This document shows, piece by piece, positions 18,456-23,720 of a stretch of DNA of 56,600 bases. Every line of letters starts with the position of its first letter. The stretch's first letter is position 1. The position numbers and the translations under genes are program-made. The notes under the pieces are model-generated. The model searched no databases. It was not told the DNA's origin and saw only the letters and a list, made by a program, of their open reading frames with translations. Source of the stretch: Gammaproteobacteria bacterium (lineage in GTDB: Bacteria > Pseudomonadota > Gammaproteobacteria > Enterobacterales > Alteromonadaceae); the NCBI GenBank assembly GCA_017302255.1, contig JAFLDV010000030.1:1-56600 (forward strand). The letters are read 5' to 3'.

Positions 18456-19025
18456 TTATTCTCCTAATAAATCTTTACGCCAGTCGGTTTGTTCCAATTT
18501 GCTCAGTGGATCTAACTCGGCGTCTTCTTCAGTGTCTTCTTCAGCGTAATCTTCATCAAGACCAAGCAATTCGATTAATTCGGCATGGCGCGCAGTCTTC
18601 GTATTAAAGTATTTCGCGTCTTTACCTGTGAGGATTTCCCCATTTTCAACGCGTTCTACTAAATCTAATAACTTCTCGTCTTGCTCAAGTGCCGCAAGCT
18701 CTTGTTCCGGCGCAATCTCTACCGGCTTAGCTTTGGCTAACTGGGCCTTCGGCTGGATGTTGGCCGGTTTTTGCAGCAGTTTTTGTTCATTGGCATCTAA
18801 CACCAAGGCGATTGGTTTTTTGCTGCCATGACGTGGATCTTTATTCTTATTGCCAGCTGAGTTTTGCTCTGCAGCAATTACTTGGCTGTTGCGGCTACCA
18901 GATTTTAAACCAGCACCTTTTTTCTTGGTTTCGACCGGACGATCCCGCTCTTGCCGTGCTTCTGTTGCCGGTTTATGTCGAATGCCAATTTGGCCTGAGG
19001 TGCGGGATTTTTTAATACGTGTCAT
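18456..19025 (-). CDS. yihI: Der GTPase-activating protein YihI
   Basis: The 189-residue protein (E. coli 169) has a very basic N-terminal part (KKSRTSGQIGIRHK, then ETKKKGAGLKSGSRN) and an acidic C-terminal part (EEDTEEDAELDPLSKLEQTD) containing the conserved block LDLVERVENGEILTGKDAKYFN. YihI stimulates the GTPase of Der (EngA), which acts in 50S ribosome assembly. Gene order (hemN side downstream, csrC-type RNA and engB upstream) matches the enteric locus. It is followed directly by DUF2489. Confidence 0.92.
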   Translation of the reverse strand: MTRIKKSRTSGQIGIRHKPATEARQERDRPVETKKKGAGLKSGSRNSQVIAAEQNSAGNKNKDPRHGSKKPIALVLDANEQKLLQKPANIQPKAQLAKAKPVEIAPEQELAALEQDEKLLDLVERVENGEILTGKDAKYFNTKTARHAELIELLGLDEDYAEEDTEEDAELDPLSKLEQTDWRKDLLGE

Positions 19026-19265
19026 GGGTTCTACCTATAGAAAAGGGCGCGTATTTTAACCACATTTTTATGATCTGCATACGTATTTCGCCTTAGCGCG
19101 GTTTGTCAGCGCAACGATATCCTGTTTAAGTCGGCAACTTTGTGCTCGGACTTGGTATCAGTGTAGTCGTTTCTGTCGGATAACACTGTGATCGCAATTA
19201 AATGGATGCGCACCGCAGACTGTTGTTTTACCGAACTAATCGCCAATTGGATCTGTGATGCGCTA

Positions 19266-19300
19266 TAAAACAAAACGGCGACAAGTTGCCTTGTCGCCGT
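19266..19300 (-). terminator. Terminator of the CsrC-like RNA
   Basis: An 11-bp perfect stem ACGGCGACAAG / CTTGTCGCCGT (loop 4 nt, 19275-19300) is followed on the minus strand by TTTTGTTTTAT. Confidence 0.85.
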
Positions 19301-19565
19301 CAAAGGTTGTGCCAATCAGCACTAAATTTTTTTCACGTCGTCCTAACCTGTTTATGACACCCTGTCTGGTCAGTTTCCGTATATTTTTGCGTCACTTCCC
19401 TATAGAAATAATTATTCGCGATCGTCCTGATACTTTTTATATCGTCCTTGTCGCTCGCGTTAAAAACGCCGACATCATGCTTGATGTCTTATTCTAATTG
19501 TACCTAAGCACCGTGCTTTCCGTGCCAAAACATCCGTTTTGTTTGAGTTGTTACTAAACGTAACG
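19267..19565 (-). ncRNA. csrC: Probable CsrB/CsrC-family CsrA-sequestering RNA
   Basis: A ~300-nt minus-strand RNA is predicted between a promoter (-35 TTGCCA at 19599-19594, 16-bp spacer, -10 TAAATT at 19577-19572) and a strong terminator (19300-19266). It contains no credible ORF on that strand. AGGACGA occurs three times (about 19447, 19427 and 19343), one as ACAAGGACG close to the CsrA consensus. A CAAAAC-GGAT-GTTTTG hairpin shows a GGA in a tetraloop near the 5' end. Seven GGA triplets are present in total. A GacA/UvrY-type palindrome lies about 176 bp upstream. In E. coli csrC occupies the same place, between yihI and engB and on the yihI strand. GGA density is lower than in enteric CsrB. 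Confidence 0.7.
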
Positions 19566-19571
19566 GGGTTT

Positions 19572-19599
19572 AATTTACTCCGTTCTGGCAGAATGGCAA
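19572..19599 (-). promoter_or_regulatory. Promoter of the CsrC-like RNA
   Basis: The -35 box TTGCCA (5 of 6) and -10 box TAAATT (4 of 6) are separated by 16 bp on the minus strand. The predicted start is near 19565. Confidence 0.6.
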
Positions 19600-19731
19600 T
19601 ACGGCGTACAAAAAAAAATCACTAAAAAACTGAACCAATTTTTTACCGTGTTTTAATTCAATGGGTTACGAATATTTTGCGGTGAAATAACAACTTTGCA
19701 CGATAGAATTATGCTGAATATCCTACAGCAT

Positions 19732-19751
19732 TTGTGAGATATATCTCACAA
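19732..19751. promoter_or_regulatory. GacA/UvrY-type upstream activating palindrome
   Basis: A perfect 20-bp palindrome is present, with core TGTGAG-N6-CTCACA. It fits the TGTAAG-N6-CTTACA box of GacA/UvrY regulators with one change per half. Its centre is about -176 from the predicted CsrC-like RNA start, similar to the remote sites known in front of csrB and rsmZ. A CRP site would need N6 between TGTGA and TCACA; here it is N8. Confidence 0.7.
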
Positions 19752-19883
19752 GAAAGGTTAATGGTCTGACAGAAAACTTGGTGGTTGGCTATGCAACTTT
19801 GGTCTGATAGTTCCGTACCGAATCGTTCAAAATTGTGGCAGCGATAAATTTGCTTTGAGCTATTGGCTTTAAATATTTAAGGC

Positions 19884-19918
19884 AAAAAAAACCGGAGTAT
19901 GAGCTCCGGTTTTTTTTT
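19884..19918. terminator. Bidirectional terminator after cytochrome c4
   Basis: ACCGGAG / CTCCGGT stem flanked by eight A on the left and nine T on the right, so both strands have a U-tract. It lies just after the cytochrome c4 stop and separates it from the CsrC-like RNA locus. Confidence 0.85.
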
Positions 19919-19931
19919 GCAACGGCGAGAA

Positions 19932-20558
19932 TTAATGTAAACCGCCTAAATATTTTGATAACGCTGCAATGTCATCATCAGATAATTTTTTCGCAACGTC
20001 ACGCATCATACCGTTCATATCGTTAGCACGAGTGCCAGCACGGAAACTTTCCAGCTGCGTTTTGATATATGCGCCATGTTGGAAAGAAATCTTAGGGAAG
20101 CCCGCTAAGCTATGACCTACACCACGTGGGCCATGGCAGGCGATACAGGCTGGAATGCCGCGCACCATGTCACCGCCACGATATAATTTTTCGGCTTTCG
20201 CCACTACGTCTTCTGGAGTCGTGCCTGGTGTCATTTTTTGCGAAGCAAAATAAGCCGCCAGATCATACATATCTTGCTCGGTAAGTGCCGCAACCATACC
20301 ACCCATGATGGCATTATTACGACCTTCTTTACCGCCGCTGGTCATACCCAGCTTAAATTCTTTTAACTGTTTCACAATATAACCAGCATGTTGGCCGGCG
20401 ATTTTTGGATACATATCGGCTGGGCTATTGCCATCAGGACCGTGACAGGCGGCACAGGTTGCTGATTTTGCTTTACCGGCCTCGGCGTTACCTTCTACGG
20501 CAGCGGCTTGACCGATTAACCCAACTAAAAGCATGACTGGAAGTGCTAATTTTCTCAT
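19932..20558 (-). CDS. Dihaem cytochrome c4
   Basis: The 208-residue periplasmic protein has a signal peptide (MRKLALPVMLLVGLIGQAAA) and two class I haem c domains with CAACH (Cys35, Cys38, His39) and CIACH (Cys138, Cys141, His142). Met ligand candidates lie in AIMGGM and MNGMMRD. This tandem architecture is cytochrome c4, an electron donor to terminal oxidases. The start at MRKLA is preferred over an upstream in-frame GTG or other codon because it begins the signal peptide. In E. coli nothing of this kind lies between csrC and engB, but cytochrome c4 next to engB is common in pseudomonads and Alteromonadales. A leader hairpin ACCTGC-N6-GCAGGT lies at 20584-20601. Confidence 0.93.
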   Translation of the reverse strand: MRKLALPVMLLVGLIGQAAAVEGNAEAGKAKSATCAACHGPDGNSPADMYPKIAGQHAGYIVKQLKEFKLGMTSGGKEGRNNAIMGGMVAALTEQDMYDLAAYFASQKMTPGTTPEDVVAKAEKLYRGGDMVRGIPACIACHGPRGVGHSLAGFPKISFQHGAYIKTQLESFRAGTRANDMNGMMRDVAKKLSDDDIAALSKYLGGLH

Positions 20559-20726
20559 CTTGTTCCGTCTCTGTTCGGCTTGAACCTGCAATTTAGCAGG
20601 TGCAATGGATAATAACCCTAGTTTTTATGCCTATTTTACACGATTCTTGCAGAGATAAAATCCCAATGCTTCTGCATATCATTGATTTCCGCTAAACTAT
20701 AGTCAAATTTGACGTCGGAGTAAGAT

Positions 20727-22801: not shown

Positions 22802-22948
22802 TTACATTCCTTAGTGGCAAAGCTGCGTATCATCAGCCAAAGATCAGCGAGAGACCTTAGGTGGCTAACGGCAAAAGCATGGGATCAGGCTTGATGATAA
22901 CGCAAACGAGCAATGAGGCGTGTGGGAATTGGCAAAAACATGGGGGCT

Positions 22949-22983
22949 AAAAAAGAAAAACCGACTGTTCAAAGAACAGCCGG
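22949..22983 (-). terminator. Terminator of the candidate small RNA
   Basis: Stem CCGGCTGTTC / GAACAGTCGG, loop TTT, tail TTTTTCTTTTTT on the minus strand. Confidence 0.85.
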
Positions 22984-23048
22984 CATAGCAAACGGGGAGA
23001 AGCTATCAAATAATTTCAAATCAACAGGGTGTCTTGCATATGAAGACC
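22949..23048 (-). ncRNA. Candidate new small RNA downstream of Spot 42
   Basis: A minus-strand unit of about 100 nt has its own promoter (TATAAT -10) and an intrinsic terminator with a 10-bp stem (one G-U pair), a TTT loop and the tail TTTTTCTTTTTT. A second hairpin GTCTT-N7-AAGAC lies at the 5' end, followed by an unpaired U/A-rich stretch, the usual layout of an Hfq-dependent sRNA. No ORF with a ribosome site fits. From memory, a second sRNA gene next to spf has been reported in Aliivibrio; whether this one is homologous is not known. Confidence 0.65.
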
Positions 23049-23053
23049 TGGCC

Positions 23054-23081
23054 ATTATACACAGAATTTTTAGCGTTTAAA
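23054..23081 (-). promoter_or_regulatory. Promoter of the candidate small RNA
   Basis: On the minus strand a perfect TATAAT (23059-23054) is preceded by TTTAAA (23081-23076) with a 16-bp spacer. The predicted start is near 23048. Confidence 0.65.
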
Positions 23082-23132
23082 GTATTTACTCTAGAAAATC
23101 TAATAAAATTTCAGAATTAGTTTGTTTTCGAC

Positions 23133-23250
23133 AAAAAAAAACGCCCCACTGCAAGCAGTGGGGCGGCTAAATAAGCCTACTTTCCATTTAAAATCAACTG
23201 CTAAGCAGCGATTTCGTTGAAAGATAGAACATCTTACCTCTGTACCCTAC
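23133..23250 (-). ncRNA. spf: Spot 42 RNA
   Basis: The ~118-nt minus-strand RNA begins GTAGGGTACAGAGGTAAGAT, and its first 33 nt are identical to E. coli Spot 42 as I remember it. It ends in the conserved TTAGCCGCCCCACTG-type terminator with a nine-U tail. The middle part (the usual unstructured regions II and III) differs from the enteric sequence. Spot 42 is an Hfq-dependent RNA that represses secondary carbon and redox genes. Its place next to polA, on the same strand, matches E. coli. The -10 is TACAAT and the -35 is TTGCTT. Confidence 0.95.
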
Positions 23251-23257
23251 GTTTTTG

Positions 23258-23285
23258 ATTGTAATGAAACCGGTTTAAAAAGCAA
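23258..23285 (-). promoter_or_regulatory. Spot 42 promoter
   Basis: TACAAT at 23263-23258 and TTGCTT at 23285-23280 with a 16-bp spacer place the start at about 23250-23251, exactly at the conserved 5' end. I found no clear CRP site overlapping it. Confidence 0.75.
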
Positions 23286-23378
23286 GCGAATTTTGTAATA
23301 AAACTACAAAAAACGTTCATTTATTCTGCTGTTTGCTATTTATCGTAATTTTATAACCAGATTTTTACCAAATTCGCA

Positions 23379-23401
23379 GTGATTTAGTGACGATAAATCA
23401 C
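23379..23401. repeat. Perfect 8-bp inverted repeat upstream of Spot 42
   Basis: GTGATTTA-N7-TAAATCAC lies about 130 bp before the Spot 42 start and 200 bp after polA. It could be a regulator site or an RNA hairpin in the polA 3' region. No T-run follows. Confidence 0.5.
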
Positions 23402-23607
23402 CAAAGTGGGAACGAGTCGGCATGCAATATTGTTACCCATTCAAGGGAAAAAGCGTTAAACGACAAGGCTCCATTCGGCGAGACAGTTAAGTGAGAAGTC
23501 GCATCTAAATCTCGAACTGTGGCAGCGGGCGAGTAAAGTTGGCTCTGCGTTAATTTCGGGTGTTGTCCAACCAAGTTGAGTCAGCGTTATCTAATGGTGT
23601 TTTAGTC

Positions 23608-23634
23608 AAAAAAAAGCCCCTGCATTGCAGAGGC
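23608..23634 (-). terminator. Intrinsic terminator of polA
   Basis: Stem GCCTCTGC / GCAGGGGC (one G-U) with loop AAT and a tail of eight T on the minus strand, about 87 bp after the polA stop. Confidence 0.85.
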
Positions 23635-23720
23635 GAGAATGTGGACTACCAGGAATGGGGATGTTCACTGCTTAATCAGATAGGCAAAGGCGGAGAAAGT
23701 TCAGCCGCCTTGCAAAATAA

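Follow-up and report, generated by a model that had tools for sequence, protein, structure and literature searches.

In the window, by which we mean the whole stretch of 56,600 nucleotides that was analysed, the gap between a cytochrome c4-type gene and yihI most likely encodes a small RNA that BarA/UvrY activates and that sequesters CsrA, at the position held by csrC in Escherichia coli. Csr sRNAs are a known kind of RNA, and this one would be a diverged new csrC, presumably UvrY-driven and CsrA-sequestering. Taken as a whole, the reading as a UvrY-activated, CsrA-sequestering csrC orthologue beside a larger csrB is held with high confidence. It is built on anatomy, conservation, covariation, synteny and the homologues of csrA, uvrY and barA, from which transcription, activation by UvrY, CsrA binding and sequestration are deduced.

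According to the mechanism proposed, the locus would encode a regulatory RNA of about 300 nt, the csrC orthologue of a Rheinheimera-like bacterium. Phosphorylated UvrY would bind a far-upstream palindrome and an adjacent half-site and activate the promoter, the RNA would end at an intrinsic terminator, and its GGA motifs would lie open in loops or single strands, bind CsrA dimers and keep them off target mRNAs. The RNA would act alongside csrB, which is far larger and has an identical UvrY box.

Anatomy of the locus and its upstream region

Following the minus strand from the cytochrome c4-type gene to yihI, the palindrome, the half-site, the promoter, the RNA of about 300 nt and the terminator succeed each other in this order:

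19932..20591, minus strand: cytochrome c4-type gene, so named for the two CxxCH motifs in its sequence; it precedes the RNA
19733..19750, no strand given: UvrY/GacA-type 18-bp palindrome TGTGAGATATATCTCACA, a site predicted from sequence and conservation
19719..19727, minus strand: second half-site TGTAGGATA, which follows the palindrome after exactly 5 bp
19594..19599, minus strand: -35 hexamer TTGCCA, from promoter scan and conservation
19572..19577, minus strand: -10 hexamer TAAATT, from promoter scan and conservation
19267..19566, minus strand: csrC-like non-coding RNA of about 300 nt, its 5' end placed from the promoter
19274..19301, minus strand: intrinsic terminator, a 12-bp stem followed by TTGTTTT, from folding; the stem covaries
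18456..19025, minus strand: yihI, also downstream of csrC in E. coli, from the open reading frame, relatives and the E. coli gene order

The preliminary description had reported a perfect palindrome TGTGAG-N6-CTCACA, a promoter that places its centre at about -176, a strong terminator and no open reading frame; the first three were found, and no long sense frame is present. The distance of -176 is counted from an RNA start that the promoter puts near 19566. The predicted promoter, TTGCCA-16-TAAATT, spans 19599..19572 and is the sole promoter-like site on the minus strand within 19000-19960. As the scan of both strands returned two sites against 2.5 expected in shuffles, it proves nothing by itself, and the support for the promoter is its conservation: in 33 aligned upstream rows, the -35 region reads TTGCCAT, TTGTCAT or TTGTTAT, and the -10 reads TAAATT, TAGATT or TACATT. 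Just upstream of the -35, at 19610-19629 on the minus strand, two T-tracts (TTTTTT-N5-TTTTTTTTT) are kept in the genus rows and constitute a possible UP-element or bending site.

Regarding coding capacity, only two sense open reading frames of at least 20 aa touch the RNA, one of 20 codons (19333-19395) and a 69-aa TTG frame that starts at 19315 and leaves the RNA through the terminator, whereas an 80-aa GTG frame (19255-19497) and shorter ones run antisense to it. The predicted fold of the RNA has a z-score of -4.74 against its own shuffles, none of 200 being as low. At the level of sequence, indels that ignore any frame, the lack of a long sense frame, the conserved promoter and the terminator indicate a non-coding RNA equipped with a promoter and terminator of its own.

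The available text of PMC4682653 reports binding of UvrY, far upstream of both csrB and csrC, to a palindrome of 18 nt; the preliminary description had likewise named remote boxes for GacA/UvrY. The same paper places the UvrY site of E. coli csrC within -223 to -143, gives TGTAGGAGA 5 bp downstream of the palindrome of E. coli csrB, and describes the csrC palindrome as degenerate, TGTGAGACATTGCCGATA in E. coli and TGTGAGACATTGACCATT in Salmonella. The perfect palindrome of the window, followed 5 bp on by a half-site, thus amounts to a csrB-like box arrangement at the csrC place.

In the 4.03-Mb genome, TGTRAGN6CTYACA occurs at three places (here, upstream of csrB and once in a coding frame), and the exact 18-mer at two, the RNA locus and the region upstream of csrB. 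The third match (TGTAAGCCGCGGCTCACA) was rejected as a UvrY box; it has other letters and, because it lies within an apparent long open coding frame, it was treated as chance. Among the genus upstream regions that reach far enough, the palindrome is present in 21 of 21, with 18 exact to the consensus and three with one mismatch as judged by eye; the 22nd contig ends before the palindrome position and is outside this count. Most aligned upstream rows also carry a half-site resembling GTAAGA or GTGCGA 4-5 bp after the palindrome. The box upstream of csrB was exact to the consensus in 16 of the 17 csrB loci inspected among the 22 genus genomes and had one mismatch in the other. When 80 loci outside the genus were scanned, the palindrome had at most one mismatch in 30 and two in 13, the remaining 37 having three or four, which is equivalent to no box. 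Therefore, judged from sequence, a GacA/UvrY-type box is present upstream of the RNA promoter, is conserved, and has its exact 18-mer in common with csrB only; activation through it is predicted. The genome also holds one csrA, a UvrY homologue 65% identical to that of E. coli with a UvrC-like frame behind it, and a BarA homologue that is 39% identical and nearly full length.

Conservation of the RNA, its hairpins and its GGA motifs

YihI turned up in 49 of the 60 relatives, including 22 of 22 within the genus Rheinheimera, and the comparison of the yihI-cytochrome c4 gap among related genomes that had been suggested earlier located the RNA upstream of yihI in all 22 Rheinheimera genomes searched. 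A covariance model, R1, was made from 21 of these 22 RNAs and was searched, with no positional information, over 395 genomes of the family. Matches were obtained in 97 genomes: all 22 of the genus, 21 of them the model's own rows, and 75 of the 373 others, spread over 16 other genera that include Arsukibacterium, Alishewanella, Alkalimonas, Paraglaciecola and Pseudoalteromonas. The 298 genomes with no R1 match were counted under stricter filters that lose weak ones.

Of the 75 matches outside the genus, 72 shared the strand of yihI and preceded it by 119-918 bp; of the remaining three, one came from a genome that yielded no YihI and two, weak at 21-22 bits, had yihI on another contig. For the weakest out-of-genus matches (20-25 bits), which come close to the noise, position is what supports them; the noise reference in the own genome is 17.5 bits for a coding gene plus terminator. 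A clear csrB elsewhere together with random drift here had been named beforehand as an outcome against the csrC reading. The first part holds, as a clear csrB does exist elsewhere; by comparison of the sequences, the locus with R1 orthologues upstream of yihI is conserved and not drifting.

In one Rheinheimera subclade (L020, L021, L028 and relatives), an open reading frame named methyltransferase-like from its sequence lies between the RNA and yihI, and perhaps also in relatives with a spacing of about 800 bp between both; it is absent from the window.

Two alignments were used for counting. A2 holds 21 genus rows, L030 being excluded owing to a 21-nt internal duplication. A4 holds 39 RNAs aligned without structure, 10 of the 22 of the genus and 29 of the 33 out-of-genus matches of at least 70 bits, and excludes L079, L092, L094, L102 and 42 weaker out-of-genus matches; it was used for the pair counts instead of A3 (90 matches fitted to the model, 688 columns). 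The hairpins and further GGA motifs of the window RNA are as follows:

19550..19564, minus strand: 5' hairpin GUUAC-GUUUA-GUAAC, 100% of cells paired, both-side changes in 3 of 5 pairs
19471..19488, minus strand: hairpin GACAUCA-AGCA-UGAUGUC, 97.9% of cells paired, both-side changes in 2 of 5 pairs
19421..19431, minus strand: AGGA hairpin AUC-AGGAC-GAU, proposed core CsrA site, GGA in 39/39
19337..19347, minus strand: AGGA hairpin GUU-AGGAC-GAC, proposed 3' CsrA site, GGA in 35/39
19355..19367, minus strand: short hairpin with GGG in its loop, ACAGGGTGT in 22/22 genus RNAs
19533..19535, minus strand: GGA, invariant in 39/39
19519..19521, minus strand: GGA, invariant in 39/39
19445..19447, minus strand: GGA, invariant in 39/39
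19397..19399, minus strand: GGA, 21/21 genus rows, aligned in 27/39
19376..19378, minus strand: GGA, 21/21 genus rows, aligned in 25/39

Six helices with 30 pairs were examined in A4, four of them given by RNAalifold; the two 3-bp AGGA hairpins were added after their letters had been seen, so that the counts for these two are not blind. Changes on both sides were found in 14 pairs versus 6.1 in shuffles, with 0 of 500 as high, although such shuffles do not keep the relatedness among the sequences. Standard pairs occupied 98.0% of cells versus 93.3% in shuffles, and pairing fell to 28-62% when the partners were slid by 1-3 columns, whereas the measure of further pair types was not above the shuffles (54 of 500).

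Each AGGA hairpin is weak by itself on folding. The core hairpin shows C-G in place of U-A at its middle pair (197/205) in 7 of 38 distinct rows. In the 3' hairpin, the outer pair, recounted on ungapped rows since a gap is misplaced at column 299 of A4, is A-U in 18 of the 39 RNAs, G-C in 10, G-U in 3 and an unpaired A-A in 4, the motif being absent from 4. The conservation of the AGGA loops in relatives, which had been proposed as a check, is thus seen in two covarying hairpins. The loop of the 139-154 helix (the hairpin at 19471..19488) bears a GGA in 23 of the 39 aligned RNAs (column 145), which is absent in the window RNA, where the hairpin is kept.

The window RNA contains seven GGA motifs, as the preliminary description had counted. 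The small number was right, but the number itself is no evidence, because it is at chance level (7 versus 5.7 on average after dinucleotide shuffling, p 0.32), and enrichment in GGA by count was rejected as an argument. The GGA signal resides instead in conservation and exposure. GGA is the most frequent invariant triplet, being 4 of the 9 triplets invariant across the 39 RNAs and 6 of the 48 invariant across the 21 genus rows, and it is predicted to be unpaired with a probability of 0.648, the other triplets with two G/C reaching 0.359, a difference of the same direction in all 39 RNAs. Seven conserved and predicted-exposed motifs, partly in covarying hairpins, would fit the Csr type, with CsrA binding putative.

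Three AGGACGA motifs are present as had been described (19448-19442, 19428-19422 and 19344-19338), but the bias for AGGACGA rather than AGGAUG that had been drawn from them is peculiar to the window genome: the 21 other genus RNAs have 0-2 copies and use AGGATGA too. Likewise, the GGAT tetraloop on a 6-bp stem near the 5' end exists (19541-19526, -4.5 kcal/mol), though its stem of 6 bp survives in just 4 of the 22 genus RNAs. In one genus genome (G016), the csrC-like RNA at L030:2764-3081 has a 21-nt internal tandem duplication and 9 GGA versus 7-8 in most others.

Relation to csrC and to other Csr RNAs

In E. coli K-12, the order is polA-spf-yihA-csrC-yihI-hemN, with csrC between yihA (engB) and yihI on the yihI strand, as the preliminary description had stated. 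In the window, it is polA, a peptidase gene, engB, the cytochrome c4-type gene, the RNA, yihI, two genes and hemN, the names being given from sequence. The RNA therefore occupies the place expected for csrC, ahead of yihI on its strand and near engB/yihA, and this position together with the promoter argues for orthology with E. coli csrC. E. coli carries spf between its polA and yihA genes, but at 22802-23720 and elsewhere in the window no Spot 42 reached the Rfam threshold.

Orthology rests on position and promoter and not on the RNA sequence, because the R1 match to E. coli csrC is at noise level: at 17.1 bits versus a 17.5-bit false positive in the own genome, it was rejected as evidence. 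R1 matches of 15-21 bits to the csrB loci of two genomes of other families (L003, L004) were not used as evidence either. The Rfam covariance search for CsrB/CsrC that had been proposed as a check remained below threshold. At the gathering threshold, the whole window gave no match to any family; CsrC (RF00084) scored 15.2 bits on the RNA over model positions 214-239 only, the terminator part, against a cut-off of 61, and CsrB (RF00018, gathering score 71 bits) had no match in the window. By score, the RNA is not a member of RF00084.

When the own genome was searched with RF00084 at E up to 10, the RNA locus was not listed, and the sole match in the whole genome (C1:192299-192342) was rejected as csrC, since it covers only the terminator that follows a coding frame. 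No Csr family was found at E up to 0.05 on 10 genus loci or on 8 Pseudoalteromonas/Neptunicella loci, whereas the E. coli control reached 278.7 bits. Among 20 out-of-genus loci, CsrC families appeared at E 0.022, 0.029 (the terminator part) and 0.044, all sub-threshold and suggestive at most; the unrelated family BjrC68 appeared in the same search at E 0.00015 in L120, below its cut-off.

Compared with CsrC of E. coli and Salmonella, the window RNA likewise adjoins yihI on the yihI strand, has its UvrY site far upstream, and has a terminator stem that begins with GGCGA and ACAGGGTGT in its 3' half, although this 9-mer may be chance. It differs in its seven GGA versus 14 in E. coli CsrC (available text of PMC11882849), in its perfect palindrome where that of E. 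coli is degenerate, in the cytochrome c4-type gene between engB and the RNA, and in that the RNA sequences do not match significantly.

Pf3 of Pseudoalteromonas fuliginea, a Csr sRNA that binds CsrA in gel shifts, is similarly poor in GGA, with 9, and its flanking genes are given only as the locus tags D172_RS16045/RS16040 in the part of PMC11882849 available. In P. distincta, the interval from cytochrome c4 to yihI includes a GGA-rich stretch, in which 300 nt contain up to 9 GGA and which R1 matches over positions 96-180 (23.7 bits); the box of this species is csrC-like versus the perfect palindrome of the window. Compared in this way through P. distincta, with the neighbours of Pf3 known as locus tags only, Pf3 is probably the same RNA as that of the yihI locus. 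Boxes were counted at 37 of 39 Pseudoalteromonas yihI loci, two having too short an upstream sequence: 29 of the 37 have a site with at most 4 mismatches from the Salmonella csrC 18-mer, nine with only one, and seven of the other eight have a near-palindrome (1-2 mismatches) instead. In the control, one of 195 letter shuffles reached 4 mismatches and none did better. In Shewanella, the predicted csrC lies elsewhere on the chromosome and is not BarA/UvrY-dependent, as stated in the available text of PMC3171408. No description of the yihI-locus RNA, or of csrC in Rheinheimera, was present among the literature matches listed, which mostly leave aside subscription journals.

The csrB of the same genome (G000:C1) has the identical 18-bp UvrY box and is GGA-rich, but is much longer and at a different locus, with a cluster of 38 GGA over 625 nt and a 52-bp tandem unit. 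It scores 58.6 bits to RF00018, below the cut-off of 71, and is the sole match in the own genome at E up to 1. This csrB is unusually long (L040, G000:C1:210000-216000, minus strand, about 3635-2745), its tandem unit being repeated in 5.8 copies; the 17 genus csrB loci have clusters of 21-43 GGA.

Alternative readings and significance

The earlier view of a diverged csrC with a UvrY box is thus supported by the orthologues, the covarying AGGA hairpins, the invariant GGA, the box, the csrA, uvrY and barA homologues and the E. coli locus. As a rival reading, it could be a Csr RNA with a second job, in which invariant stretches devoid of GGA, for example around AAGUAUCAGGANGAUCGCGAAUAA, pair with targets or recruit a decay factor. 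As csrB holds a cluster of 38 GGA, a sponge of seven adds little, and the 130 of 306 alignment columns invariant over the 21 genus rows leave room for a second function; but such conservation may equally reflect the context of CsrA sites, decay signals or recent common ancestry, and this extension is considered unlikely.

A UvrY-activated small RNA that acts by base pairing, with incidental GGA motifs, would agree with a GGA count not above the shuffle expectation and with Rfam Csr models below threshold, yet GGA leads the invariant triplets, lies in loops of covarying hairpins and is predicted more exposed than comparable triplets in every one of the 39 RNAs, making this option very improbable. 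Still less credible is a 5' leader or attenuator, whether for yihI or for the methyltransferase-like gene found behind the RNA in some relatives: the RNA does lie upstream of yihI on the same strand, but it has a strong terminator and its own conserved promoter, its distance to yihI varies from 119 to 918 bp, and it is also found without the methyltransferase-like gene, for instance in the window.

Returning to the reading as a UvrY-activated csrC orthologue, a broader version of it is put forward tentatively, with considerable doubt: a csrC beside yihI would be ancient, vertically kept and common to Enterobacteriaceae and Alteromonadaceae, concealed by an RNA sequence too diverged for Rfam to detect, and in Rheinheimera it would have become compact and low in GGA, with invariant stretches serving a second function. 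Csr sRNAs have a reputation for lacking conservation, and the usual way to find them is to count GGA. Such counting would fail here, where seven is a chance number, whereas the RNA is recovered in many genera of a family by position, UvrY box and covariation, which thus offer a way to csrC in genomes for which Rfam reports none. The locus may also tie the Pf3-like RNAs of Pseudoalteromonas to E. coli csrC, and the natural pair of a huge csrB and a small csrC under an identical box would provide a test of why bacteria keep two Csr RNAs.
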